From: Thalassomonas actiniarum
Lineage (GTDB): Bacteria > Pseudomonadota > Gammaproteobacteria > Enterobacterales > Alteromonadaceae
NCBI RefSeq assembly: GCF_000948975.2
Contig: NZ_CP059735.1
Coordinates: 124,001-188,000 of the forward strand
Direction: 5' to 3'
DNA: 64,000 nucleotides
The position numbers were made by a program, and so were the translations under genes. Below, in pieces: positions 21,692 to 48,033 of the stretch (positions are counted from its first letter, which is position 1; every line of letters begins with the position of its first letter). The notes beneath the pieces were generated by a model. The model had not been told where the DNA came from. It was given only the letters and a program-made list of their open reading frames with translations, and ran no database searches.

Positions 21692-24430
21692 ATGACAACG
21701 TCTTCATTATCTCCGCTTATTCTCGTCGATGGCTCCTCGTATTTATTCCGTGCTTATCATGTTCCTTACCTTCAGGCACTGTCGACTGCCGATGGTCAGC
21801 CTACCGGGGCGATTACCGGGGTGCTGAATATGATCAACAGCCTGAAAAAAGACTACCCTCAGGGTAATGTCGTGGTGGTTTTTGATGCCAAAGGAAAAAC
21901 TTTCCGTAATGATCTTTATCCGGAATATAAAGCCAACCGTCCGCCGATGCCGGAAGATTTGCGCTGCCAGATAGCGCCTATCCACGAGATTATCGGCGCC
22001 ATGGGATTGCCTTTATTGGTCATTGAAGGGGTAGAAGCCGATGATGTTATTGGCACCCTGGCGCGCCAGGCCTGTGATCTGGGCATAGAAACGGTGATCT
22101 CCACCGGTGATAAGGATATGGCCCAGCTGGTAAGCCCGAATGTCAGGCTGATCAATACCATGACCAATGTAGAGATGGATGAAGCCGGGGTTGTGGAAAA
22201 ATTCGGGGTGAAACCGGACCGGATCATAGATTATCTGGCGCTGATGGGGGATAAGGTCGATAACATCCCCGGGGTGGAAAAATGCGGCCCGAAAACTGCG
22301 GTTAAGTGGCTGACTGCCTACGACAGTTTAGACGGGGTCATTGCCAATGCCGACCAGGTAAAAGGCAAGGTAGGGGAAAACCTGCGGGCGGCACTGACCC
22401 AGCTGCCGTTATCCTATGAACTGGCCACCATCAAGCTCGATGTCGAGCTGGAGCAGGGGGTTAGCGAGTTACAGCCGAAAGAGGCGGATGTTGAAGCCCT
22501 GACGTCTCTTTATCAAAAATTTGAATTACGCCGTTTGCTTGCGGACCTGACTTCCGGCAAGGGAGCGGGTGACAAAGGTGACGAAGGTGAAGCCGAGGAA
22601 AAAGCCGAACAGCAAGTTGAGGCTGATTACGACATTATTTACGAGCAGGCAGCTTTTGAAGCCTGGCTGAAAGAATTAACGGCAGCGGATTATTTTGCCT
22701 TTGATACCGAAACCACCAGTGTCGATTATATGAAAGCCGAACTGGTTGGTTTGTCTTTTGCGTGTCAGCCGGGTAAAGCTGCCTATGTGCCGTTAAAACA
22801 TGATTATGAAGATGCCCCCGAGCAACTGGATATCGACTATGTGCTCGGTAAATTAAAGCCTTTGCTGGAAGATAAGAATAAAGCCAAACTTGGCCAAAAC
22901 CTGAAATACGATGCCAATGTGCTTTCCCATTATGATATTGAGCTCCAGGGTGTGGCATTTGATACCATGATAGAATCCTATTGTTTAAACAGTGTCGCCA
23001 CCCGCCACAATATGGATGCATTGGCAGAAAAGTACCTGGGTTATAAAACCGTACATTTTGAAGATATTGCCGGTAAAGGGGCCAAGCAGCTGACGTTTAA
23101 CCAGATAGAAATCGAAAAAGCGGGTTTTTATGCCGCCGAAGATGCTGATATTACCTTGCGGTTGCACCAGGCTATTTACCCGCAGTTGGAAAAATCTGCC
23201 AATCAGTTAAGTGTTTATAATGACATTGAATTGCCGCTGATGCCGGTGCTGGCGAAAATGGAGCAGCACGGGGTCTTGATCGATTGTGATCTGCTGGATC
23301 AGCAAAGCCAGAGCTTAGGCAAACGACTGGAAGAGCTGGAAGTGGAAGCCCATAACCTGGCAGGAAAATCCTTTAACCTCGGCTCGCCTAAGCAGTTGCA
23401 GCAAATTTTATTTGAAGAGCTGAAAATCCCGGTGATCAAGAAAACTCCCAAGGGGGCACCTTCTACCGCAGAAGAAGTGTTACAGGAGCTGGCGCTGGAT
23501 TATCCGTTGCCGAAACTTATCCTGGAAAACCGCGGCCTGAGTAAGCTTAAATCTACCTATACCGATAAGTTGCCGTTAATGGTTGCCGGGAAAACCAACC
23601 GGGTGCATACCTCCTATCATCAGGCGGTAGCGGCCACCGGACGTTTGTCTTCCACCGATCCTAACCTGCAGAATATTCCGATCCGCAGTGAAGAAGGGCG
23701 TAAGATCCGCGAGGCCTTTATCGCCCCGCAAGACCATAAAATTGTCGCCATCGATTACTCGCAAATTGAATTGCGTATTATGGCGCACCTGTCCGGTGAT
23801 GCCGGTTTAGTGAGTGCCTTTGCCCAGGGACGTGATGTTCACCGGGCGACGGCGGCAGAAATTTTTGCCGTAGACCTGGATCAGGTTACCGGCGATCAGC
23901 GCCGCAGCGCCAAGGCCATTAACTTTGGTTTGATTTACGGTATGTCGGCATTTGGCTTGTCCAAACAGCTGGATATCGGCCGCCACCAGGCGCAGCAATA
24001 TATGGATAAGTACTTTGAACGTTATCCGGGCGTATTGACCTATATGGAAGATACCCGGGCACAGGCTACCGAGCAGGGTTATGTTGAAACCCTGTTTGGC
24101 CGTCGCTTGTATCTGCCTGATATCAAATCGAAAAATCAGATGCGCAAAAAAGGCGCCGAGCGCGCCGCTATCAATGCTCCTATGCAGGGCACGGCGGCAG
24201 ATATTATCAAGAAAGCGATGTTGGCGGTAGACAGCTGGATCACAGAGCAAAACGATCCGCGCATTAAAATGACGATGCAGGTACACGATGAACTGATTTT
24301 TGAAATTCATCAGGATATCGTTGAAGAAACCACGGCTAAACTGGTGGAGATCATGAATAATGCCGTTGATCTGGATGTACCGTTAATTGCCGAAGCCGGT
24401 ATCGGCGATAACTGGCATCAGGCCCATTAA
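21692..24430 (+). CDS. polA: DNA polymerase I
   Basis: A 912-residue repair and Okazaki-maturation polymerase. The N-terminal 5'-3' exonuclease includes GVEADDVIGTLA and STGDKDMAQLV. An acidic linker is at about 290-310. The 3'-5' exonuclease has the FDTETTS metal site near residue 336, so proofreading should be active. The polymerase domain carries DYSQIELRIMAHLSGD near 687, the RRSAKAINFGLIYGMS O-helix, and VHDELIF near 865. Length matches E. coli Pol I (928). It is followed by its own terminator and then by a small-RNA gene. Confidence 0.97.
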   Translation: MTTSSLSPLILVDGSSYLFRAYHVPYLQALSTADGQPTGAITGVLNMINSLKKDYPQGNVVVVFDAKGKTFRNDLYPEYKANRPPMPEDLRCQIAPIHEIIGAMGLPLLVIEGVEADDVIGTLARQACDLGIETVISTGDKDMAQLVSPNVRLINTMTNVEMDEAGVVEKFGVKPDRIIDYLALMGDKVDNIPGVEKCGPKTAVKWLTAYDSLDGVIANADQVKGKVGENLRAALTQLPLSYELATIKLDVELEQGVSELQPKEADVEALTSLYQKFELRRLLADLTSGKGAGDKGDEGEAEEKAEQQVEADYDIIYEQAAFEAWLKELTAADYFAFDTETTSVDYMKAELVGLSFACQPGKAAYVPLKHDYEDAPEQLDIDYVLGKLKPLLEDKNKAKLGQNLKYDANVLSHYDIELQGVAFDTMIESYCLNSVATRHNMDALAEKYLGYKTVHFEDIAGKGAKQLTFNQIEIEKAGFYAAEDADITLRLHQAIYPQLEKSANQLSVYNDIELPLMPVLAKMEQHGVLIDCDLLDQQSQSLGKRLEELEVEAHNLAGKSFNLGSPKQLQQILFEELKIPVIKKTPKGAPSTAEEVLQELALDYPLPKLILENRGLSKLKSTYTDKLPLMVAGKTNRVHTSYHQAVAATGRLSSTDPNLQNIPIRSEEGRKIREAFIAPQDHKIVAIDYSQIELRIMAHLSGDAGLVSAFAQGRDVHRATAAEIFAVDLDQVTGDQRRSAKAINFGLIYGMSAFGLSKQLDIGRHQAQQYMDKYFERYPGVLTYMEDTRAQATEQGYVETLFGRRLYLPDIKSKNQMRKKGAERAAINAPMQGTAADIIKKAMLAVDSWITEQNDPRIKMTMQVHDELIFEIHQDIVEETTAKLVEIMNNAVDLDVPLIAEAGIGDNWHQAH

Positions 24431-24599: not shown

Positions 24600-24765
24600 T
24601 GCCCAAAATGACGGGGCAGGGCTCTGGCTCCGGACAAATCTTCATTGCTATCACCTGCTTTGGTTGTTTTCTTACAAAAAACATCTCTAAAATCATAGTG
24701 AAGCCCCTGTTTTTCCTGTGTTTGTAATAAAAACACAGAAACTGTAAAAAAATTACATTTTTTGC

Positions 24766-24795
24766 TTTACTTCCTTAGAGTGGTTACTCTATAAT
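24766..24795 (+). promoter_or_regulatory. Promoter and operator-like repeat of small-RNA copy 1
   Basis: -35 TTTACT (24766-24771, or TTACTT one base on), then 17-18 bp, then a perfect -10 TATAAT (24790-24795). An inverted repeat TAGAG-N6-CTCTA (24776-24791) fills the spacer and overlaps the -10. The same layout occurs in copy 2. Confidence 0.75.
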
Positions 24796-24801
24796 GAACT
24801 T

Positions 24802-24891
24802 GTTCCTAACGCGAACGCTTGTTGTAATTTTTTGTATATTCTAGCTTTCCTCATAGCTATAGGCCGATAGTCAGACTGTCGGCTTTTTTTT
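24802..24891 (+). ncRNA. Small RNA copy 1 at the Spot 42/ErsA position downstream of polA
   Basis: Predicted ~90-nt RNA starting 7 nt after a TATAAT box. Elements in order: a GTTC/GAAC hairpin at the 5' end (24802-24816); a conserved unpaired stretch containing TGTTGTAAT and TTTGTATATTC; a TAGCT/AGCTA hairpin (24842-24859) with the pyrimidine-rich loop TTCCTCAT; and a terminator GCCGATAGT/ACTGTCGGC (one T-G pair) with eight T. A homologous copy lies at 33791. Spot 42 and ErsA occupy this locus in other gammaproteobacteria, but the sequence is not recognisably Spot 42. The loop could pair with Shine-Dalgarno regions (inference). Confidence 0.72.
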
Positions 24892-25059
24892 GCCTGAAAT
24901 TTAGCAGAATGTCGTTTAAATGAAAGTTGATGTTTTATTACGAATATTTGGCCGGGTAGGAAAAAGCAGCAATATCAACGCTCTATTGCTGCAATCAATG
25001 GCTTAATAGCGATTGCCGGAAGGGAAGCTTCTTCTGATTTTTCTTTAGTTTTCTTTTGG

Positions 25060-25995
25060 TTATACCTGGTTGTTATTTTGCTCTATTTCTTTTTGTTGTA
25101 GCCATTGCAGCACCCGGGGAAAATGATCATCAACCGCTTCCGCGGCGGTGAGCATATTCAGGTGATCGTAATCGAGTTTATTGCCCGCTTTTTTACTGAG
25201 CAGCTGGTAGCTGGCGTGTTTCAGGCAAGATTCAGACATAAATAATTTAACATCGCTGCGGTGTCCCAGGCTGAAATCGCGGATGGCGGCGAAATAGTGG
25301 ATCGGCGGCAGCACCTGATTTTTAGCGGCCTGGGCGTAATCGAAATTATCGTCGCTGTCACGCCAGTGGTCGTTTTTGACCCAGGAGACACATTGCCTGT
25401 GGGTTTTTAACGTTTCGTTATCGGCGCCGAATTTGAGCTTTTTGGCCGGCAGATAACCAAAAGATTTACTGAGCAGCGGGCTAAAGCGGTTCCAGAAAAA
25501 CTCTATTTTCAACAGGCGTTCGAAATTTTTAACCCGCACCCGGCGTTTACTGCCAAAATAAACGCCGCTGATCACTTTGTCACCCAGATGGGGAAAGCGT
25601 AATAGCATGGCATTGAGGTAAACCCCGCCCCAGGAATGGGCCGCCAGATGTAGCTTAGGTTGCTGGCTGTGTTCAAGGATAAAATCTATGATCGCCGGCA
25701 AGTCATGACAAATGGTCTCGCTCTGGCCATGTAAACTGTGTTTGCCTATTTTAGGCGTGCTTTTGCCTATGCCGCGCAGGTCTGCTACGTATACCTGGTA
25801 ACCCTGTTTGGCCAGATAGCTGCCGAGTCCTTTGCCGCTGGGATGATAAAAGATGCGACCGTCTTCCACCATGCCGTGTACCATCAATACCGGCAGGCCT
25901 TTTTTATCTTGATCTCCGGCGTGGGCTTTATTGATGGACATCAGGTGTAACCGGCTGCCGCAGGGCAGGGGCAGATAAAGAGATTGATATAACAT
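25060..25995 (-). CDS. Alpha/beta-hydrolase fold protein
   Basis: A 311-residue hydrolase with the oxyanion segment LMVHGMVEDG, a nucleophile elbow AHSWGG near residue 145, and a late YDHLNML histidine near residue 278. It has no clear cleavable signal. It resembles lysophospholipase/acylglycerol-lipase-like enzymes, but the substrate cannot be assigned. It lies immediately inside the block flanked by the two small-RNA copies, transcribed toward polA. Confidence 0.78.
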   Translation of the reverse strand: MLYQSLYLPLPCGSRLHLMSINKAHAGDQDKKGLPVLMVHGMVEDGRIFYHPSGKGLGSYLAKQGYQVYVADLRGIGKSTPKIGKHSLHGQSETICHDLPAIIDFILEHSQQPKLHLAAHSWGGVYLNAMLLRFPHLGDKVISGVYFGSKRRVRVKNFERLLKIEFFWNRFSPLLSKSFGYLPAKKLKFGADNETLKTHRQCVSWVKNDHWRDSDDNFDYAQAAKNQVLPPIHYFAAIRDFSLGHRSDVKLFMSESCLKHASYQLLSKKAGNKLDYDHLNMLTAAEAVDDHFPRVLQWLQQKEIEQNNNQV

Positions 25996-26110
25996 AACCG
26001 CGCTTAACAGGATAAAAGTGATGGCATTCTTGGTGCTGTGCTCATGAACAGAACACCAAAGAACAGGTACTACCAGTTACTATACTAATTGCCGTTAAAA
26101 AGCACAATCA

Positions 26111-26142
26111 CCCCTATGCAGGCATTTTGCTCCTGATAGGGG
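26111..26142 (-). terminator. Hairpin after the acidic hypothetical gene
   Basis: On the minus strand CCCCTAT-CAGG pairs with CCTG-C-ATAGGGG. It lies just downstream of the stop at 26170 and is followed only by a weak, delayed T stretch. Confidence 0.5.
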
Positions 26143-26169
26143 CGGCAAGCTTATATCAGCAGGCACCTT

Positions 26170-26625
26170 TTACTTTACCTGCCAGCGTAAATTGTCATTG
26201 AGGAAAACAGTGACCTGGTGATCGCTATTGTCTTCCAGATCTTCCTGGTCGTCATCCCAGCCGTGATAGCTGTGGTTGTTAATGGCGGTCAGGTTGTAGA
26301 CCTGGCTGTCGTAAGGGAAGGTTTCCCCCGGGGCGGCATTTTCTATCATCACGTATTCGTCGTTGTCGTCAAAGTATTCTTTTACTGCGGTCAGCAGATC
26401 CTGCTCTGTGTTGATCTGTTCCAGATTGAGTTCTGTGATGCAGATTTTATCCTTATCCCTGACTTTTATATGTAAGCCCCGGTTATGGGGGCTGTTGAGG
26501 GGGTAGCTGACATCCCGGTTGATATTCACCAGCAGTTCAACATCCTGCGCCTTTATTCGAGTGGGGATAATTGTGGTGGCGTGCACCTTATGGCCGCTAT
26601 CATCAATTTTGTAACCTAGTTCCAT
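26170..26625 (-). CDS. Acidic conserved-looking hypothetical protein
   Basis: A 151-residue soluble protein without signal peptide or membrane segment. It is Asp/Glu/Asn-rich, especially near the C-terminus (GWDDDQEDLEDNSD). I do not recognise a family. It begins 26 bp after the stop of the chemoreceptor gene on the same strand, so the two are probably co-transcribed and it may work with or follow the chemotaxis protein. Confidence 0.6.
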   Translation of the reverse strand: MELGYKIDDSGHKVHATTIIPTRIKAQDVELLVNINRDVSYPLNSPHNRGLHIKVRDKDKICITELNLEQINTEQDLLTAVKEYFDDNDEYVMIENAAPGETFPYDSQVYNLTAINNHSYHGWDDDQEDLEDNSDHQVTVFLNDNLRWQVK

Positions 26626-26651
26626 GGTTGAGCTCCTTTTTAGTATACTGC

Positions 26652-28628
26652 TTATACTTTAAAGGCTCCTGTAACATCCTGCAACGTGGTAGCCAGTTGC
26701 GCCTGTTCTATTGCCGTGGCGGCAATCTGGCTGGCGCCAGTGGTGGAGGCCATAGATTTTTGCTCAATATTGACAATACTTTTCGCCACATCCTGGCTGA
26801 CGGTTGCCTGTTCTTCAACTGAAAAGGCAATTTGGTTGATCATTTTAAAAATACCGCTGACAGACTGGCTGATTTCCTTCAGGCTTTGTTCAACTTTCAT
26901 TGAACCTTCAACGGCTTGACTGGCTTTTTCTTTACTGGATTCAATGACACTGAAAGCAGAATCGACATCGGTTTGCAATGAGCCGATAAAGCTTTCTATT
27001 TCTGTGGTGGATTCCTGGGTGCGTTGTGCCAGGGTTCTGACTTCATCGGCAACCACAGCAAAACCACGGCCCTGCTCCCCGGCCCTGGCAGCTTCAATGG
27101 CGGCATTCAGGGCGAGCAGATTGGTTTGTTCTGCCACGGACTTGATTACATCAACCACTTGGGTGATATTAGCGCTGCTTTGATGTAATTGCGTCATTCT
27201 CTCGGTTAAGTGATTGATTTCATTGGCAAGGCTTTCAATTGCCTGGTAAGACTCCTGCACAACTTTGACCCCTTGCTGTGCCTGTTCATTGCTGGCTTTG
27301 GCCGAGTCTGCGGCAAGCTGGGTATTTGAGGCCATTTCATTTGCATTTGAGGATAGTTCTTCGATGGCGGTAGAGATAACCCCGAGTTCGTCTTGCTGCT
27401 CGGCCATGGCGTTTGAATTATGCTCACAGGTGGTCGAGGTTTGTTGTGCGGTGGCGGCCAGGGAGGATGTTGAGGATGAAATTTCTCTGATGGCGGCGGT
27501 AAATTTTCCCAGAGTGAGGTTAAGGTTTGACGATATTTGCCCCAATTCGCTCTTATTAGACAGTTTTGCCTGTACCGTCAGGTCATTGTTGTTCCTGACC
27601 TGGGTCATCACTGATGTCAGGTCAATGACACCAGCGCTTAATTCTTTGATGATGTAGATGCTTATGCCGCCTGCCGATACGAGCAATATGGTGCTGAGTA
27701 AAATATTTAGCAGCATGGATTGTTTGGCGTCATCCTTGACGGTCATGGTTAATGATTTCAGTGAATCGCTGAGCTGAGTTTCAATTTTTTTCAGTTGGCC
27801 GATGCGATTGGTGGACTGGGTAAACCAGTGTTTGGCATCGACATTAAAGGGAGGTGTATTATGTTCGGCAATGGCTCTTAAACGGATAACTTCTTTAACC
27901 GAGGTGTTATCCAATTGTTGTTGGTAAAAGTGTTGATTTTCCGGGTTGGTAAAAGTATTAAAATTATCGAAGTAATTGTTTTGCTCCGAAACCAGGGTAA
28001 TAAACCTTGTTAGCAGGCCGTCAGCAAAGTGGCCACGGGAAAAAGTATTGCTCAGTACCGCACGTTCGACACCGGCCCTTTCTTTTCCTTCTAAAAAGTT
28101 ATAATAAGCAATGGTTTCCCGGGTTACTTCAGGATGAGAGCTGATTTTTGCAATCAGGGGGGAAACACTGATCAAGGTTTTGTTTAAGTTACCAAAAAAA
28201 GCCAGTGTCTCTGAAATCTGAACGGATTGATTATCTATTTTGCGCCTGAGACTGAGCAGCTGCTCAAGCTGATTGGTTATATCTTTGTTTAGCAGGTTAA
28301 CTTGTTTTTGGAATTGGTTGTCTTGCCAATAATTGCTGTGTTGACTCATTTTGGAGTCTGTAACTTTTCTTTGTTGCTTGAGCTCAGTGGCGAAGCGCTT
28401 TCCCTGTGAACCGAGAAAGACTGCAGACATACCGCGTTCTTTTTGCAGTTCATGCACCAGTTCACTGTAAACCACGGAAAGTTGTGTCAGCCGGGTCAGT
28501 TGTGAAGCTTCATTTGTGGTGGCGGCGCTTTGGATGATGGAGGAAAGGCTAAACCATAAAAAACCCAGTAAAGGTAAGGTTAGCAACATGATAATTTTGA
28601 GCTTAAAAGAAATGTCGGAAAACTTCAT
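26652..28628 (-). CDS. Methyl-accepting chemotaxis protein with NIT sensor domain
   Basis: A 658-residue inner-membrane chemoreceptor. TM1 is at about 12-31 and TM2 at about 305-328. Between them is a helical NIT (nitrate/nitrite-sensing) domain with the typical [19 protein letters not shown] opening. HAMP follows TM2, and the methyl-accepting coiled coil contains the CheA/CheW-binding hairpin ([20 protein letters not shown], then [10 protein letters not shown]). The ligand is inferred to be a nitrogen oxyanion or related small molecule from the NIT family; this is not certain. Confidence 0.9.
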
Positions 28629-28911
28629 ATTGAATCCCTTCTATTTGTTGGTGTCGTCGTTACCTCTTGGCTACATGAGTCGAAAGCCTATCTGATCCAT
28701 GGTAAAGGCAAGTTTAGTTGCTATTTGGCATTTGAGGAAATGAGTTAGCTTGTTCTGATATTCGCTTTATTATGGTTTTTGTTTAACCTACTGAATTTAT
28801 TTGATTTAAGTAGGTGTTAAAAATTTTTATAAAAAAGTTAAAATTATTTAACCCCATTTGCCCCGGCCGTGCGTTTAACTCATAAGCAGGCATAACAACC
28901 GGGGGCCTGCC

Positions 28912-28923
28912 GTGTGATCACAC
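28912..28923. promoter_or_regulatory. 12-bp palindrome in the receptor/TonB divergent spacer
   Basis: GTGTGATCACAC is a perfect dyad 70 bp before the tonB-like start. It contains the CRP half-site TGTGA but with no 6-bp spacer, so it is not a standard CRP site. The remaining 28629-28992 spacer is AT-rich with no further gene. Confidence 0.35.
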
Positions 28924-28992
28924 CTCGCTTGATGCTTAAAGGAAATAAGTGTCATGAGCTAATCAAATTTATAAGATTTACGAGGAAGCAAC

Positions 28993-29592
28993 ATGAAAAG
29001 AACAATCGCTTTAATGCCGTTAGCGGGCATGATTACTTTTGGCTTATTTGCCTTTATGGCTTTTTTAATTCGCAATGACCAGCTTACTCCTATTGTCGGG
29101 GAGCCTATGCCGGTGATAGAAGTGGCGCAAACCCCGGAAGATTCTGAGGTGGAAACGAAACCGAAAACGCTATTGCAGCCGCCGGTGCCGCCCGCTCCTA
29201 TGCCAAAAAGTAATATGATGCCGACCCAGGAAGGTATGGACACCAGTTTTGTTTATCAGCCGGCGACGGTGGATTTAGGCAGCAGCGTCAGCACAGGTAT
29301 TTTTGACGGTGCGGCCGATACCGATGCCAGACCGATAGTGCAGATCCCGCCTAAATATCCAATGGAGGCTCTGAGTAGCGGCATTGAGGGCTGGGTATTA
29401 CTGGCTTTTGATATCGATCCTTTAGGCGGGGTGGAAAATGTCAAAGTATTGGAGGCAAATCCTAAGCGGATTTTCAACAAAGCAGCGAAGCAGGCGTTAA
29501 GAAAGTGGAAGTATCGTGCTAAATTAGTTGACGGCACGGCAGTGGCGCAGAAGAACCTGACGGTGCAATTAGATTTTAATATGGAAACCTGA
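28993..29592 (+). CDS. TonB-family energy transducer 1
   Basis: A 199-residue protein with an N-terminal membrane anchor (about residues 8-28), a short Pro-rich periplasmic region (PPVPPAPMP) and a C-terminal TonB domain (IPPKYPMEALSSGIEGWVLL, then KQALRKWKYRAKL). It couples proton-motive force to outer-membrane receptors. It is the first gene of a TonB-sigma-TonB operon; the sigma gene starts 1 bp after its stop. No ExbB/ExbD or receptor is in the window. Confidence 0.85.
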   Translation: MKRTIALMPLAGMITFGLFAFMAFLIRNDQLTPIVGEPMPVIEVAQTPEDSEVETKPKTLLQPPVPPAPMPKSNMMPTQEGMDTSFVYQPATVDLGSSVSTGIFDGAADTDARPIVQIPPKYPMEALSSGIEGWVLLAFDIDPLGGVENVKVLEANPKRIFNKAAKQALRKWKYRAKLVDGTAVAQKNLTVQLDFNMET

Positions 29593-29593
29593 T

Positions 29594-30160
29594 TTGAAGT
29601 TACCTGCAAAAATAAGGGGTTGGTTTAATCCAAAAGCCAACCCTGAAAAATTACTGGCGAATTATATTGCCACCAATAACAAGCAGGCGCTGGCGTTATT
29701 GGTGGAGCAATTTAACCTGCCGCTTTATCACTACTTAGTGAGCCAGTCGGATAAAGAGCTGGCACAAGACGTATTGCAAACGAGCTGGCTAAAGGTTATG
29801 AAGGTAAAAGAAAGCAGCAAAGCGCACACCAATGTTAAAAGTTGGTTGTTTACCATCGTCCGTAATACCCTGAACGATGAACTTCGCCGCCAGCAAAGGT
29901 GGCAATGGCAGGACGTTGAGCAGCCGTTGTTGACGGGGGAGCCACTGGAAAAAACATGTGAACTGAGCGATAAGCTGGCTAAATTTAACCGGGTGGTTAA
30001 CCAGCTGCCATTTTTTCAGCGGGAGGTGTTTATTCTCCAGCAGGAAGGTTTTTCCCTGCTGGAAATTTGTCAGCTGACCGATGAAAGCTTTGAAACGGTG
30101 AAAAGCCGTTTACGTTATGCCCGGACCAATATCAAAAAACTAATGGGGCCTGAGCTATGA
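29594..30160 (+). CDS. ECF-type RNA polymerase sigma factor
   Basis: A 188-residue extracytoplasmic-function sigma factor. Region 2 runs LYHYLVSQSDKELAQDVLQT to WLFTIVRNTLNDELRRQQRW, and region 4 is QREVFILQQEGFSLLEICQL with SFETVKSRLRYARTNIKKLM. The only start consistent with full region 2 is TTG at 29594, one base after the tonB stop, implying translational coupling. The next gene overlaps by ATGA. No classical anti-sigma (zinc-binding or FecR-like) gene is adjacent. Confidence 0.87.
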   Translation: MKLPAKIRGWFNPKANPEKLLANYIATNNKQALALLVEQFNLPLYHYLVSQSDKELAQDVLQTSWLKVMKVKESSKAHTNVKSWLFTIVRNTLNDELRRQQRWQWQDVEQPLLTGEPLEKTCELSDKLAKFNRVVNQLPFFQREVFILQQEGFSLLEICQLTDESFETVKSRLRYARTNIKKLMGPEL

Positions 30161-30936
30161 GGCAGGCACAGCACAATATTGCCAACGGCAAAGGTAAAGA
30201 CATGAACAAAAACGCTGAAGCACAGGATCTGGCTTTTGAGCAGGAAATACATGCCCTATATCAGCAGAGAAAAAACCAGCTGCAGCCTCCCGAAATCAAA
30301 TTATCAGGACAGGGGATGGCCGGCAGCAGTTACCTGGCCTGGATGCGCCCCTTGTTGTTTTTGTTTGGCGGCGGTGTTGTCTCATTTGGTTTGATGGCGC
30401 TGGTGAGCCACTTTGCCGGTTACCAGCAGCAAACTCAGGCTGTGCCTGAACCGGAGCAAAGGTTTATCCATCTGGCACCCGAACCTGAGCCAGAGGAGCA
30501 GCAAGCGGTAATTGCCGTTATCCCCCCTCTGCCGCCAAAAGTGGTACCTCAGCCGCCTGAAGTTTCGCCGGTATTGACGGCGGATCGCCATCAGCAAGTG
30601 GGTAATAGCGGCGAATTTAACTGGCAGGTGAATACCTCTCAAGAAACGGCCTTTCCTGAGCTTAAACAGCCGGGGTTAGCATTAACTCCCACATATAAAG
30701 TTATGCCGGAATATTCGGTAAAAGCACGGCAAAAAGGACAACAAGGGGAGGTAAAACTTGGTTATAAAATCAATCAAGCCGGGCAGGTGACCGATATTCA
30801 GGTGATTGATGCCAGTGTCGGCCGTGAACTGCAAAAATTATCCCGCCAGGCGCTGGCCAAATGGCGTTATCAGCCTGGTACCGCCGCAGGGCAGCAACAT
30901 CAGGTGGTCTTTGAGTTTAGCCTCAATGGCGGCTGA
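30157..30936 (+). CDS. TonB-domain protein in the anti-sigma position
   Basis: A 259-residue single-pass protein. It has a cytoplasmic N-terminus of about 65 residues, a TM helix (LLFLFGGGVVSFGLMALVSHF), a Pro/Glu-rich spacer (PEPEQRF, PLPPKVVPQPPEVSP) and a C-terminal TonB fold (VMPEYSVKARQKGQQGEVKL, then RQALAKWRYQPG). It overlaps the sigma gene by 4 bp; an internal ATG at 30202 with AAAGGT is an alternative start. Topology and position match an anti-sigma factor, but the periplasmic part is TonB. A double role is inference. Confidence 0.75.
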   Translation: MRQAQHNIANGKGKDMNKNAEAQDLAFEQEIHALYQQRKNQLQPPEIKLSGQGMAGSSYLAWMRPLLFLFGGGVVSFGLMALVSHFAGYQQQTQAVPEPEQRFIHLAPEPEPEEQQAVIAVIPPLPPKVVPQPPEVSPVLTADRHQQVGNSGEFNWQVNTSQETAFPELKQPGLALTPTYKVMPEYSVKARQKGQQGEVKLGYKINQAGQVTDIQVIDASVGRELQKLSRQALAKWRYQPGTAAGQQHQVVFEFSLNGG

Positions 30937-31019
30937 ATATAAGCAAGCCGTTAACGTTCGATAACATACAGATAAATATTAAATTATTGAAAATAAAATT
31001 AATTAGTAAGGATTACATT

Positions 31020-31721
31020 ATGCGTATATTAGTAGGTTTATGTCTGGCTATTTTCAGCTTTTCATCTTTGGCAGCAGCGATCCCGGACTCGCCCCATGTG
31101 TATGTTAAAGGCCGGGGCAAAATTTCAGTGTTGCCGGATTTGGCGGAGATCTCTTTTTCTGTGATCCGCCGTCACAGCGATTTAATCCAGGCAAAAAAAG
31201 AAGCCGATACCTTATCCGCCAACATCATTAAAATTGCCGAAGAGTATGAGATTGCCAAAGAAGATATTTCCGCGTCAGAGCTGTTTATCCAGCAAGAAAT
31301 GCAATACGACCGGGAAGCGGGCAAGCAGGTGATCACCGGCTTTAAGGTGAGCCGAAATATCCAGTTTTATCTTAAGAAAATTGATCTGTATTCACGTTTG
31401 ATGCAAAGCCTGGTGAATGCCGGCATCACCCAGATAAACGGCATCCGGATGATGGCGTCCAATGCCGAAGACCTGCAAAAACAAGCACAGAAACTGGCTA
31501 TTGCCGATGCCAGGGCGGCAGCGGAAGAGCTGGCAGACGGTTTTGAAGTAAAAATAGCCAGGCTTTACCGTGCAGCCAAAGAGCCGATCCGCGGGGAGCA
31601 GCCTTATGCCACCATGGAGAGCATGAGGGATTCGGCCCCCGCCAATATTGTTGAAGGGGCTTTTGAACCCGGCTCTATTACCATAGAGCAAGTGCTGTAT
31701 GCGGTATATCTGATCGAATAA
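31020..31721 (+). CDS. Periplasmic SIMPL-domain protein (YggE-like)
   Basis: A 233-residue exported protein with a signal peptide (ILVGLCLAIFSFSSLAAA) and a SIMPL/DUF541 domain (VKGRGKISVLPDLAEISFSV, then QAQKLAIADARAAAEELADG). E. coli YggE is linked to oxidative stress, but the biochemical role is unclear. I use ATG 31020, preceded by TAAGGAT, instead of the in-frame TTG at 30987. It follows the TonB operon by ~80 bp and may be co-transcribed. Confidence 0.85.
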   Translation: MRILVGLCLAIFSFSSLAAAIPDSPHVYVKGRGKISVLPDLAEISFSVIRRHSDLIQAKKEADTLSANIIKIAEEYEIAKEDISASELFIQQEMQYDREAGKQVITGFKVSRNIQFYLKKIDLYSRLMQSLVNAGITQINGIRMMASNAEDLQKQAQKLAIADARAAAEELADGFEVKIARLYRAAKEPIRGEQPYATMESMRDSAPANIVEGAFEPGSITIEQVLYAVYLIE

Positions 31722-31929
31722 GGGCTAAGACGGCTGGGGGGGAAATTGTTTTAGCGGCTCCAGATGTAAGCTGTAGTCATGTATGCTAAGTCGCTATTGC
31801 CCCATTAAATTAACACTTTGCACCGAATAAAAGCTAGGCAAGTAAATTTTTTGTAAGTGTAAGTATTCTTTACAGTTATTTGTTTTTTGTTTTGTGCTTA
31901 ATATCTAGTTCTTTGTTTTTTATCTGATT

Positions 31930-31997
31930 TTGTTAGTTGGCGTTAAAGTTGCTATAATGTAAGGAAAATGAAACTAAAATGCTGCTAGTTTTAGTTT
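31930..31997 (+). promoter_or_regulatory. Strong promoter and 5'-UTR hairpin of the PEP-CTERM gene
   Basis: In the 309-bp gap 31722-32030: -35 TTGTTA (31930-31935), a 17-bp spacer, and -10 TATAAT (31953-31958). The predicted leader holds a 9-bp stem, AAACTAAAA / TTTTAGTTT (31971-31997), which may stabilise the mRNA. Confidence 0.65.
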
Positions 31998-32030
31998 GCT
32001 GTCAATTTTATAAAAATAAAGGAACGTCCA

Positions 32031-32723
32031 GTGAAAAAATTACTTACCTTAGTTGCCGTATTAGGTTTGAGTACTCAAGTTTATGCTACCCCGATTGATC
32101 TGAGTAACTGGACCGAAACCCCGGGGGGAGACTGGTTACTGGCCGCCGACGGTTCCGGTGTCTTTCAGGCAGACAATGGCCAGGCAACTTTTTTTCTGAG
32201 TGAAGATAATTATATTAACAGAGAATTCAGCGGTACTTTTGGCGTTGAAACCAGCAGCGATGATGATTTTATCGGTTTTGTCTTTGGTTATAACAACAGC
32301 AATGACTATTTGCTGTTCGACTGGAAGCAAGGTTGGCACAGCTCGGCCGAATCAGGTTTTACTTTGTCCCAGATCAGCGGAACTAATGTGGATTTATGGG
32401 GCCATAGCGGTAGCGACCTTACCGTACTTGCATCCGACTATACCACCAGAGACAGCTTCAAAGGCTGGTTAGATAATACCAGCTACAATTTCACTTTGGG
32501 TTTTACCGATAGCAATATTCGTATTGATATTGACGGTAACACCATTTTTGATGTTGACGGTTCATTCAATGAGGGTAAGTTTGGTTTCTATAATTATTCA
32601 CAATCACATGTCCGTTATAGCGGTTTTGAAGAAACCTTAAGCGAAACCGTGCCGGAACCTTCTACTTTGGCTATTTTCGCTTTAGGTGTTATGGGGTTAG
32701 CTGCACGCCGTTTTAAAAAATAA
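32031..32723 (+). CDS. PEP-CTERM secreted protein with thrombospondin-C-like lectin fold
   Basis: A 230-residue exported protein with a signal peptide (LLTLVAVLGLSTQVYA). The C-terminus VPEPSTLAIFALGVMGLAAR followed by RFKK is a textbook PEP-CTERM sorting signal, processed by an exosortase encoded elsewhere. The body contains DDDFIGFVFGYNNSNDYLLF and DWKQGW, which resembles the C-terminal lectin-like domain of animal thrombospondins (DDFAGFVFGYQSSSRFYVVM, WKQ). It is therefore likely a Ca-binding beta-sandwich at the cell surface. The start is GTG behind AAGGA. Confidence 0.78.
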   Translation: MKKLLTLVAVLGLSTQVYATPIDLSNWTETPGGDWLLAADGSGVFQADNGQATFFLSEDNYINREFSGTFGVETSSDDDFIGFVFGYNNSNDYLLFDWKQGWHSSAESGFTLSQISGTNVDLWGHSGSDLTVLASDYTTRDSFKGWLDNTSYNFTLGFTDSNIRIDIDGNTIFDVDGSFNEGKFGFYNYSQSHVRYSGFEETLSETVPEPSTLAIFALGVMGLAARRFKK

Positions 32724-32761
32724 GCAGGTTTATTTATCTCGGGCTGATTGCCGAACAGTAT

Positions 32762-32792
32762 AAAAAAGCACCATGATTTTGGTGCTTTTTTA
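32762..32792 (+). terminator. Intrinsic terminator of the PEP-CTERM gene
   Basis: AAAAAAGCACC / GGTGCTTTTTT stem with an 8-nt loop and terminal T-run, 39 bp after the stop. Confidence 0.85.
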
Positions 32793-32987
32793 CAGGTGGA
32801 ACTATATCCAGCATGCTTAAAGATGATTTATAAAAGGCCGTATAATCAAAGCTGCTGTTTACTTGATAAAGAGCGCTATAACTTATCCGCTATTTTTATG
32901 ACAGTTTTTGTGATTTAGTGCGATATTCACCGTTATTACTTTTTAGTCTATGCCTGTCAAAGCTGGCAGGCAGGAAGAAAGTCACAG

Positions 32988-33644
32988 ATGACTAATCCCG
33001 AAAACGTTATTTTACTCCATGGACTGGCTCGTAGCGCCAGTTCGATGCAACGCATGGAGCAATGCTTAATTGCCCAAGGTTATGCGGTGATCAATGTTGA
33101 CTATCCATCGCGTCATTATCCGATAGAAGTTCTGGCAGAAAAAGTGATCCCGCAAGCTTTGCAACAATGTGGTGATGGTGAAATCAGTTTTGTGACCCAC
33201 TCCATGGGGGGGATCTTAGTCCGGCAGTATTTAAGTCAGCATAAAATAGCCCGACTGAATAAAGTGGTGATGCTTGGACCTCCCAACAAAGGCAGTGAAG
33301 TCGTGGATAAGCTTGGTAAGTTTCCCGGCTTTCATCTGCTAAACGGTGATGCAGGCATGCAGCTTGGTACGGGAAAATTAAGTGTTCCCAATCAATTGGG
33401 ACAGGCTGATTTTAATCTCGGAATTATTGCAGGCACCCAAAGTATTAATTGGCTGCTATCGTTGTTAATACCGGGGAAAAATGATGGCAAAGTGTCTGTG
33501 GAACGAACCCGGCTTGAAGGTATGAGGGAACATCTGGAAATGAATACCACTCATCCTTTTATGATGAAAAACGACAAGGTTATTGAACAGGTTATCCATT
33601 ATTTGCAAACGGGAAAATTCCGTTCTTATCAACTTAAAAAGTAA
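32988..33644 (+). CDS. Lipase-like alpha/beta hydrolase
   Basis: A 218-residue compact hydrolase: LLHGLARSASSM oxyanion loop, THSMGG nucleophile elbow near residue 71, MLGPPNKGSEVVD, and a late NTTHPFMM histidine near residue 187. It resembles small bacterial triacylglycerol lipases/esterases (EstA/LipA type) and has no signal peptide. It is the last gene of the block lying between the two small-RNA copies. Confidence 0.8.
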   Translation: MTNPENVILLHGLARSASSMQRMEQCLIAQGYAVINVDYPSRHYPIEVLAEKVIPQALQQCGDGEISFVTHSMGGILVRQYLSQHKIARLNKVVMLGPPNKGSEVVDKLGKFPGFHLLNGDAGMQLGTGKLSVPNQLGQADFNLGIIAGTQSINWLLSLLIPGKNDGKVSVERTRLEGMREHLEMNTTHPFMMKNDKVIEQVIHYLQTGKFRSYQLKK

Positions 33645-33754
33645 TGAGTACTTATATAACAGTTGCTTGTGTGATTGTTGTTGGCGGCTACGGAATACCG
33701 GCAGAGCTTTTTTCGGCTAGAATTGATTAATTATTAAAAAATTAGAGCAACTAC

Positions 33755-33784
33755 TTTACTTTTGTAGAGTAACAGCTCTATAAT
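33755..33784 (+). promoter_or_regulatory. Promoter and operator-like repeat of small-RNA copy 2
   Basis: -35 TTTACT (33755-33760), 18-bp spacer, -10 TATAAT (33779-33784). The spacer holds TAGAG-N6-CTCTA (33765-33780), at the same position relative to -10 as in copy 1, although the six central bases differ. Confidence 0.75.
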
Positions 33785-33790
33785 GATCCT

Positions 33791-33879
33791 GTTCCGAAAA
33801 GAACGCCTGTTGTAATAATTTGTATATTCTAGCTTTCCCCATAGCTAATACGCCGGTGATAGTTGTCACCGGTTTTTTT
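33791..33879 (+). ncRNA. Small RNA copy 2 at the engB end of the interval
   Basis: Predicted ~89-nt RNA homologous to 24802-24891. The 5' GTTC/GAAC hairpin (33791-33804), the TGTTGTAAT...TTTGTATATTC stretch, and the TAGCT/AGCTA hairpin (33830-33847, loop TTCCCCAT) are conserved. The terminator stem is different in sequence (CCGGTGA/TCACCGG) but keeps its fold and T-run, which argues for selection on structure. In many gammaproteobacteria one such RNA sits between polA and engB; here two copies bracket nine genes. Confidence 0.72.
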
Positions 33880-34018: not shown

Positions 34019-34675
34019 TTATGCTTCTATTTCGCCTTCACTTTCATCTTCGGTAATATCATCCTCGAACCACTGGCAAATGACATTGTTGGCCTGTTCG
34101 ACCCCGGTGCGTTTCAGGGAGGAGAAAGCCATGACCTGGATATCGGCATCTAAGGCGGCAAGGGTTTTTCTTACCTGCAATACTTCACTGTTACGTTTGC
34201 CCTGTTTCAATTTATCGGCTTTGGTTAATAGCGCCAGCACCGGTAACCCGCTGTCGGCAGCCCATTGGATCAAATCCATGTCCAGGTCTTTTAACGGATG
34301 ACGGATATCCATTAATACCACCAGCCCCTTAAGGCTCTCGCGTTTTTGCAGGTACTCTCCCAGCGCTTTTTGCCATTTCTTTTTCATTTCCAGCGGTACT
34401 TTGGCAAAACCGTAACCGGGTAAATCCACCAGGCGCTTGTTTTCGGCGATTTCAAAGACGTTGATCAGCTGGGTGCGCCCGGGGGTTTTACTGGTTCTGG
34501 CCAGGCTTTTTTGCCGGGTTAGGGTATTGAGGGCGCTGGATTTTCCGGCGTTTGATCGGCCAGCAAAGGCTACTTCGATGCCGCCTTCAGCGGGTAAACT
34601 GCGAATATCGGGTGCGCTGATGGTAAACGTGGCTTTTTGTAGATTAATGGCTGACGATGACAAGGGATTATCCAA
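34019..34675 (-). CDS. engB: Ribosome-biogenesis GTPase EngB (YihA/YsxC)
   Basis: A 218-residue TRAFAC GTPase needed for late 50S assembly. The G1 loop [10 protein letters not shown]2 TPGRTQ, G3 DLPGYG, G4 TKADKL and G5 FSSLK are all present. The start appears to be TTG at 34675, since no in-frame ATG precedes the conserved INLQKATF segment; no good ribosome site is seen. It diverges from the cytochrome c4 genes. The C-terminus carries a short acidic tail ([15 protein letters not shown]). Confidence 0.94.
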
Positions 34676-47661: not shown

Positions 47662-47787
47662 TCACCTGTTTAATAAAATTAAAAAACTGGCGGAGCTTTA
47701 AGGTGTGGAAAACAGCAACAGGCCAGATCTCTGGTGTTTGCTGTCAACGAGGAGCCGGTTTGCATTTTTGTTTTGGCAAACCACTCT

Positions 47788-47870
47788 CTTGTTCCCTTCG
47801 CAGATACTAATCTGATCAGGTTCTACGGATCCCGCTTATGCGATCTCAGCCCTTTTGGCACTCCGACAAG
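47788..47870 (-). promoter_or_regulatory. TPP riboswitch (THI element)
   Basis: On the minus strand the aptamer reads GGAGTGCC...GGGCTGAGATC...ACCTGATCAGATTAGTATCTG and GCGAAGGGAACAAG, with the P1 helix formed by ACAAG/CTTGT on the plus strand at its ends. The CTGAGA and CCTGATC cores that bind thiamine pyrophosphate are conserved. Downstream, GGTTTGC/GCAAACC (about 47758-47782) is a candidate expression-platform hairpin. It represses thiC-thiDE when TPP is abundant. Confidence 0.95.
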
Positions 47871-48033
47871 TCATCAGGTTAACGGTATTATCGTCAACCT
47901 GATTGAATTCTAACGTGAAGTTTAAAGGCTTGGCAAGTCCTGATATTTACCCTGTGGTCGTAAATGTCGCGCTTGGCTATTAAATGCCGGGCTGGTAACA
48001 TCTGAGGCGGAATTTTGATATTTTGTTGATAAT

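Follow-up and report, generated by a model that had tools for sequence, protein, structure and literature searches.

Spot 42 (spf, RF00021) is a small RNA (sRNA) whose gene lies downstream of polA and before engB. ErsA shares the polA-engB location and is described as having three stem-loops and a U-rich unstructured domain (PMC8575079), and VSsrna24 of Vibrionaceae is reported to lie between Spot 42 and engB, with a C-rich stretch and a length of about 60 nucleotides (nt) (PMC3295665). Here we analyze a 64-kb stretch of the Thalassomonas actiniarum genome (contig NZ_CP059735.1, positions 124,001 to 188,000; hereafter the window, whose own numbering is used for all coordinates). Two loci of about 90 nt, copy A (24802-24891, plus strand) and copy B (33791-33879, plus strand), are present between polA (21692-24430, plus strand; NF004397, 1207 bits) and the convergent engB/ysxC (34019-34675, minus strand; TIGR03598, 246 bits), where the initial annotation had placed them.

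The two copies differ from Spot 42 in having other hairpins and no GTAGGGTACAGAGG 5' end, from ErsA, which is under sigma-22 control, in having a sigma-70-type promoter, and from VSsrna24 in length. Two further systems are likened to them by description and not by sequence. AbcR1/AbcR2 of alpha-rhizobia, found at an unrelated location, are described as homologous neighbouring sRNAs with different transcriptional control and Hfq binding (PMC8844928). The Neisseria siblings NgncR_162/163 are reported to be 78% identical, to have three stem-loops and to use loop and linker for pairing at the ribosome-binding sites of metabolic mRNAs (PMC9973317); they are adjacent, whereas copies A and B are split between the anchor genes. 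From the comparisons below, copies A and B are probably sibling trans-acting base-pairing sRNAs of one old duplication, with anti-Shine-Dalgarno loops. Our best reading is that the two have split in predicted control and in seed, and that A would sit in Spot 42's place after polA.

Identity and structure of copies A and B

Copy B aligns to copy A with 81% identity (BLASTN, query 6-107) and is its sole other strong match both in the window (E 7.6e-21; next 0.92) and in the whole 7.5-Mb genome (E 9.9e-19; next 0.87), in agreement with the earlier view of a doubled locus with one copy per anchor gene. Scanning found one promoter-like and one terminator-like site at each copy; the promoter scan alone was near chance (1 per locus versus 0.5 and 0.8 in shuffles) and the terminator scan further from it (1 per locus versus 0.1 and 0.3). 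Both copies have a sigma-70-type promoter, TTTACT-18-TATAAT (plus strand; 24766-24795 for copy A, where it is kept in the copy alignment, and 33755-33784 for copy B), RNA starts that are predicted, not mapped, and a terminator stem with a T tail (plus strand; 24861-24891 and 33852-33879). Hairpins at 24802-24816 and 24842-24859 in copy A and at 33791-33804 and 33830-33847 in copy B fold as described. Located by alignment and folding, the eight loop bases TTCCTCAT (24847-24854, plus strand; A-type seed) and TTCCCCAT (33835-33842, plus strand; B-type seed) have a predicted unpaired probability of at least 0.94. Most of the core is also predicted unpaired, the exception being four bases (UAUA) of the copy B core that are predicted mostly paired. 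Scans, folding and sequence identity together bear out the shared promoter, 5' hairpin, single-stranded core, C-rich-loop hairpin and terminator.

Copy alignment A2 was used with a consensus structure set by us. In the model-fitted alignment of 50 distinct copies, standard base pairs fill 97.2% of the paired cells versus 87.4% after shuffling, and double-sided changes occur at 13 of 18 pairs versus 6.0, a count that leans towards the tested structure because the alignment was fitted to it. By element, the double-changed pairs are 7 of 9 in the terminator, 2 of 4 in hairpin 1, where a GC-to-AU double change is present in seven sequences, and 4 of 5 in hairpin 2, each through 1-3 sequences only. 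RNAalifold on the unfitted alignment A2 predicted the terminator alone. Almost no variation is seen in the copy alignment at the single-stranded TGTTGTA or at the loop TCC-C-CA, and the terminator stem is less well conserved than core and loop. Selection on RNA structure had been proposed from terminator stems that differ in sequence and fold alike; this argument is weak by itself, because any terminator folds alike despite sequence change, and the weight is carried instead by the near-invariant core and loop and by the paralogue-specific promoters. The similarity thus reaches beyond promoter and terminator, the core being among the best conserved parts in relatives.

When both copies were compared with Rfam by covariance models, as had been proposed, no family matched at its gathering score: neither copy was matched at cut-off by Rfam 15 in a search of the 64-kb window, and permissive settings gave weak matches alone. 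Spot 42 was not listed for either copy even at E up to 5 (gathering score 80 bits). ErsA / Pseudomon-1 (RF01719) reached 16.9 bits at copy A against a gathering score of 50 and was not listed at copy B; in 16 relatives it gave weak matches in 5, none over cut-off. A sigma-E/sigma-22-type promoter (GAACTT-N16-TCTGA) was not seen by eye at either copy, the sigma-70-type promoter being there instead. VSsrna24 was rejected as well: by eye, in genomes G600 and G609 it is without the 5' hairpin, the TAGC/GCTA hairpin and the AGAGTAA element. These two genomes hold the only exact VSsrna24 matches in the 177 searched from the family of G215, and each match lies between polA and engB; one further match with one mismatch has no polA or engB nearby, and an 18-mer scan of genome contigs returned only two metagenome-assembled genome (MAG) contigs of other groups. 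No earlier description of this RNA was seen among the papers listed in literature searches, most subscription papers being outside their coverage. Judged by sequence, the RNA pair is unlisted in Rfam 15 and is neither Spot 42, ErsA nor VSsrna24.

Two paralogue types and their predicted control

To follow the pair in relatives, 196 genomes of the window's GTDB family, representing 52 genera, were queried with copy A. Matches at E up to 0.01 were obtained in 65 genomes and 20 genera; two weak single matches (G032 and G072, E 0.007 and 0.004) were dropped, leaving 63 carriers in 18 genera. In 47 of the 63, a copy in the orientation of polA lies no more than 1.5 kb downstream of it; in 44, a copy convergent with engB lies within 10 kb of that gene. 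Four compact genomes that have a single copy between the anchors (G008, G052, G087, G158) are counted for both. Exactly two matches were found in 42 carriers and three in 2, and the polA-engB gap, where the anchors are on one contig, ranges from 359 bases to 342 kb. This distribution over many genera, at both anchors and with a variable gap, suggests that the pair is an old feature; the duplication would appear to be single, old and common to many genera, not a local event. The 16 carriers without a copy within 1.5 kb of polA and the 19 with one match only argue in the opposite direction. An order-wide search with model R1 gave matches in 46 of 394 genomes at E up to 0.05, with nothing above 41.3 bits outside the window's own family. 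Among 20 weak R1 loci (L114-L133), polA and engB matches are present in L116 and L129 only and the others look like chance; further weak matches lie within 0.5 kb of polA (G309, G269 and the third match of G001).

Loop and upstream elements were scorable in 46 of 48 copies, and the remaining 2 were skipped. The loop reads CCTC (CCUC in RNA; A-type) in 20 copies and CCCC (B-type) in 26, a difference of one loop base. Sorted by nearest anchor, A-type copies make up 17 of the 20 scored on the polA side and B-type copies all 20 scored on the engB side. A-type copies were seen in 14 genera, including three copies away from polA (L048, L061, L101). Upstream elements follow the same division. A HexR-type box with at most 2 mismatches precedes 17 of 20 A-type versus 1 of 26 B-type copies (Fisher 1e-8), and a palindrome, TAGAGTAANNACTTTAC, precedes 23 of 26 B-type versus 0 of 20 A-type copies at the same tolerance (Fisher 6e-10), both p values being too small because related genomes are not independent. 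The box ends exactly 44 nt before the start in 13 of the 17 box-bearing A-type copies. In the window, the corresponding elements are the box TGTAAAAAAATTACA (24743-24757, plus strand), which has 2 mismatches to TGTAATTWAATTACA and ends 44 nt before the predicted start of copy A, and the operator-like palindrome TAGAGCAACTACTTTA upstream of copy B (33743-33758, plus strand). A tree of 50 copies, drawn open with a root for drawing only, groups 21 A-type copies with one divergent polA-side copy (support 89/97), and the A label needs 2 changes on it versus a shuffled mean of 16.1.

Several observations weigh against so clean a division. Three polA-side copies are B-type (L047, L075, L077), a good box is missing in 3 of 20 A-type copies and present in 1 of 26 B-type copies, three A-type boxes lie at 54-63 nt, and the scoring skipped 2 of the 48 copies. 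Genome-wide, the B palindrome shows no enrichment (6 places versus 8+4 for a reversed control), and a palindrome scan of the genome found no regulator for it. The tree was built on few columns, with 26 of 47 inner branches open. In genus g52, the five genomes examined have CCCC copies only. Tandem copies also occur there, with two between polA and engB in L075 and three in a row in L076.

The HexR box has the consensus TGTAATTAAATTACA, and an upstream box is viewed as activating (PMC11906056). The window's genome encodes a HexR protein (NF008451, 520.7 bits versus a cut-off of 296); its gene and zwf are divergently oriented, the gap between them holds two boxes of the same class as the one at copy A, and the gene after hexR resembles pyruvate kinase on inspection by eye. 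In 13 of 13 window-clade genomes we found one RpiR-class match each (104-107 bits), of which only the window's own was named HexR by family search, and a box within 2 mismatches is present at all 13 of these loci (shuffled mean 0.5 of 13). We infer that copy A would be activated, via HexR, at low levels of the Entner-Doudoroff signal KDPG (2-keto-3-deoxy-6-phosphogluconate). Speaking against this, the box of copy A carries two mismatches and is not among the 3 genomic places that match with at most 1.

These differences bear on the view that the siblings are redundant and serve dosage on a common set of targets, for which the shared core and the 81% identity would speak; this is unlikely, as the CCUC and CCCC loops and the promoter elements are kept apart across the 14 A-type genera. 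In the mechanism that we favor, each RNA would expose a U-rich core that begins with YUGUUGUA and a hairpin loop rich in C (UUCCUCAU in A, UUCCCCAU in B). Pairing of this loop with Shine-Dalgarno-type GAGG or GGGG stretches of target mRNAs, probably with Hfq on the terminator U tail, would lower the translation or stability of these mRNAs. We propose pairing with mRNA because base-pairing sRNAs that block ribosome-binding sites have the same combination of a conserved, unpaired C-rich loop, a U-rich linker and a U tail. A would respond to sugar (KDPG) status through HexR, and B to some other regulator, so that the same scaffold would serve two inputs with partly different targets. A sponge or protein-titrating RNA that does not pair with mRNA is improbable: strict conservation of the hairpin loop could reflect protein binding, but neither copy has a CsrA-type GGA-in-loop motif by eye and the loop base differs between the paralogues. 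The siblings would offer a natural test of the division of labour, since on the same scaffold one seed base and the promoter have changed and been kept over many genera.

Spot 42 and its neighbouring RNA

With strict filters and E up to 0.001, RF00021 matches were found in 40 of the 196 family genomes, one of them above cut-off. No such match was found in 62 of the 63 pair carriers; the sole exception, G109, has a match of 30.8 bits far from polA. We examined 19 loci around RF00021 matches, together with a twentieth locus (L101) centred on the copy of G109, and a Spot 42-like 5' end lies downstream of polA in all 19. Across 44 window-clade loci the 5'-end motif gave 3 matches, which is chance level, in surroundings unlike Spot 42. 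Among 52 Spot 42-like loci of relatives, 20 have a HexR-type box within 2 mismatches, ending 41-45 nt before the start in 19 of the 20, a likeness to copy A.

In 7 of the 19 loci (L083-L089), Spot 42 is followed by a second RNA as a separate gene, in the order TAGAGYAANNACTT upstream, 5' hairpin, CCTGTTGAT, TAGC-CTCCCC-GCTA hairpin and terminator. Inspection by eye of the loci listed showed similar RNAs after Spot 42 in families f6 and f15 and in g71. We picked 19 loci of this Spot 42-adjacent RNA, a selection that does not measure prevalence. The upstream element TAGAGYAANNACTTYA is found within 2 mismatches in 17 of these 19 loci of other lineages (shuffled rate 0.5%), a count biased because 16 of the 19 had been picked with upstream AGAG; the palindrome TAGAGTAANNACTTTAC of the B-type copies is a close variant of this element. 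No Rfam family matched this RNA at its gathering score in the 16 of 19 picked loci tested. In genus g18 (L176, L187), the RNA stands directly after polA, without a box, and genomes G018 and G064 have no listed Spot 42 match.

A covariance model, R2, was made from eight Spot 42-adjacent RNAs of families f6 and f15 only, with no window-clade sequence. Searched with R2, the 64-kb window returns its own two copies first and second (E 4.2e-7 and 1.6e-6; next 0.0023). In 41 window-clade loci R2 gave 57 matches, of which the 42 ranked first are all copies and 8 are not copies; every locus has a matched copy. In 61 other sources, the five best matches are the Spot 42-adjacent RNA in L145, L137, L086, L083 and L084. 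The two that follow lie elsewhere (L152, and in L144 within the gene for Spot 42). After them the RNA appears again in L089, L176, L187 and L085 at 22.7-24.5 bits and, at 19-20 bits and mixed with other weak matches, in L087 and L088. R2 matches in VSsrna24 loci lie away from VSsrna24. What the window copies share with the Spot 42-adjacent RNA is the 3' half, namely YTGTTG, the TAGC-C-rich loop-GCTA hairpin and the terminator. On this sequence evidence, copies A and B are related to the RNA between Spot 42 and engB of other families, and the undescribed family first suggested is refined to one that would be wider than Colwelliaceae-like bacteria, because it takes in that RNA. Two points count against the kinship. 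Its basis, besides the upstream element, is the 3' half and a short motif, YTGTTG, and 5' hairpins are not alike from family to family; MAFFT misaligned these hairpins, and that alignment was set aside. Since B shares its loop and upstream element with the Spot 42-adjacent RNA, it would be the older form.

This opens the possibility, which we put forward tentatively, that Spot 42 was displaced in the Colwellia-like clade by a duplicate of its neighbouring sRNA, which took over Spot 42's place and HexR-type input and changed in its own seed loop, a non-orthologous replacement over at least 14 genera; equally tentative, and joined to it, is that the replacing RNA belongs to a new anti-Shine-Dalgarno family present in several families of the order. 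The place and the box position fit. Against it, the box could have arisen in place, with Spot 42 lost earlier, and 32 of the 52 Spot 42-like loci lack a box within 2 mismatches. The copy A box may be either inherited from the Spot 42 promoter or arisen in place, and a partial box is present at the same position in B promoters of some genomes. If A is under HexR, an sRNA would be tied to KDPG, and this would suggest that the control of a slot can outlive the RNA that used it. The pair would add a new sRNA family to one of the best-studied sRNA loci of gamma-proteobacteria.

That copy A is instead a far-diverged Spot 42, an spf orthologue of which copy B is the duplicate, is quite improbable. 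The place after polA is the same, the box distance is that of the 19 Spot 42-like loci, and 62 carriers are without a Spot 42 match, all of which would agree with it; but neither copy matches RF00021 at any E up to 5, both match the other, Spot 42-adjacent RNA, and in L083-L089 this RNA and Spot 42 coexist as separate genes. Least probable of all is the reading in which the loci do not act in trans but serve polA and engB as transcriptional attenuators or terminator-linked elements, for although most copies lie downstream of an anchor gene and both window copies end in a terminator, they have conserved promoters and operator-like palindromes of their own, A-type copies persist away from polA, and the terminator stem is less conserved than core and loop.

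Other features of the region

Further palindromes lie within the promoters: TAGAGT-N4-ACTCTA spans the spacer and the -10 element of copy A (24776-24791, plus strand; copy alignment and palindrome scan), and a second palindrome of copy B, TAGAGTAACAGCTCTA, is located at 33765-33780 (plus strand; sequence and copy alignment). In 27 of 79 relatives, a sigma-E-type promoter pattern, TGAACTT-N16-GTCTG/A, occurs in the polA-engB region, versus a shuffled mean of 2.2. It stands after Spot 42 in L090, L092, L094-L097, L099, L100, L135, L136, L138, L142, L143, L175, L177-L180 and L190, before Spot 42 in L082, L085-L089 and L138, and in L174 and L185, where no Spot 42 5' end was seen; a short U/G-rich stretch and a terminator often follow. 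These loci perhaps hold an ErsA-like third sRNA. In family f10 (L156, L157), Spot 42 is followed by another occurrence of the element TTAGAGTAATTACTTTAA, here ahead of a short RNA-like stretch of a different kind.

The genes between the window copies (about 9 kb) encode two alpha/beta hydrolases, a chemotaxis receptor, two TonB-type proteins, an extracytoplasmic function (ECF)-type sigma factor and a SIMPL protein, among others, including a PEP-CTERM protein with a thrombospondin C-terminal-like domain (32031-32723). Viewed in the window alone, this gene content is probably incidental. The one Rfam 15 match above cut-off in the window is a TPP (thiamine pyrophosphate) riboswitch at 47776-47875 on the minus strand (70.6 bits).

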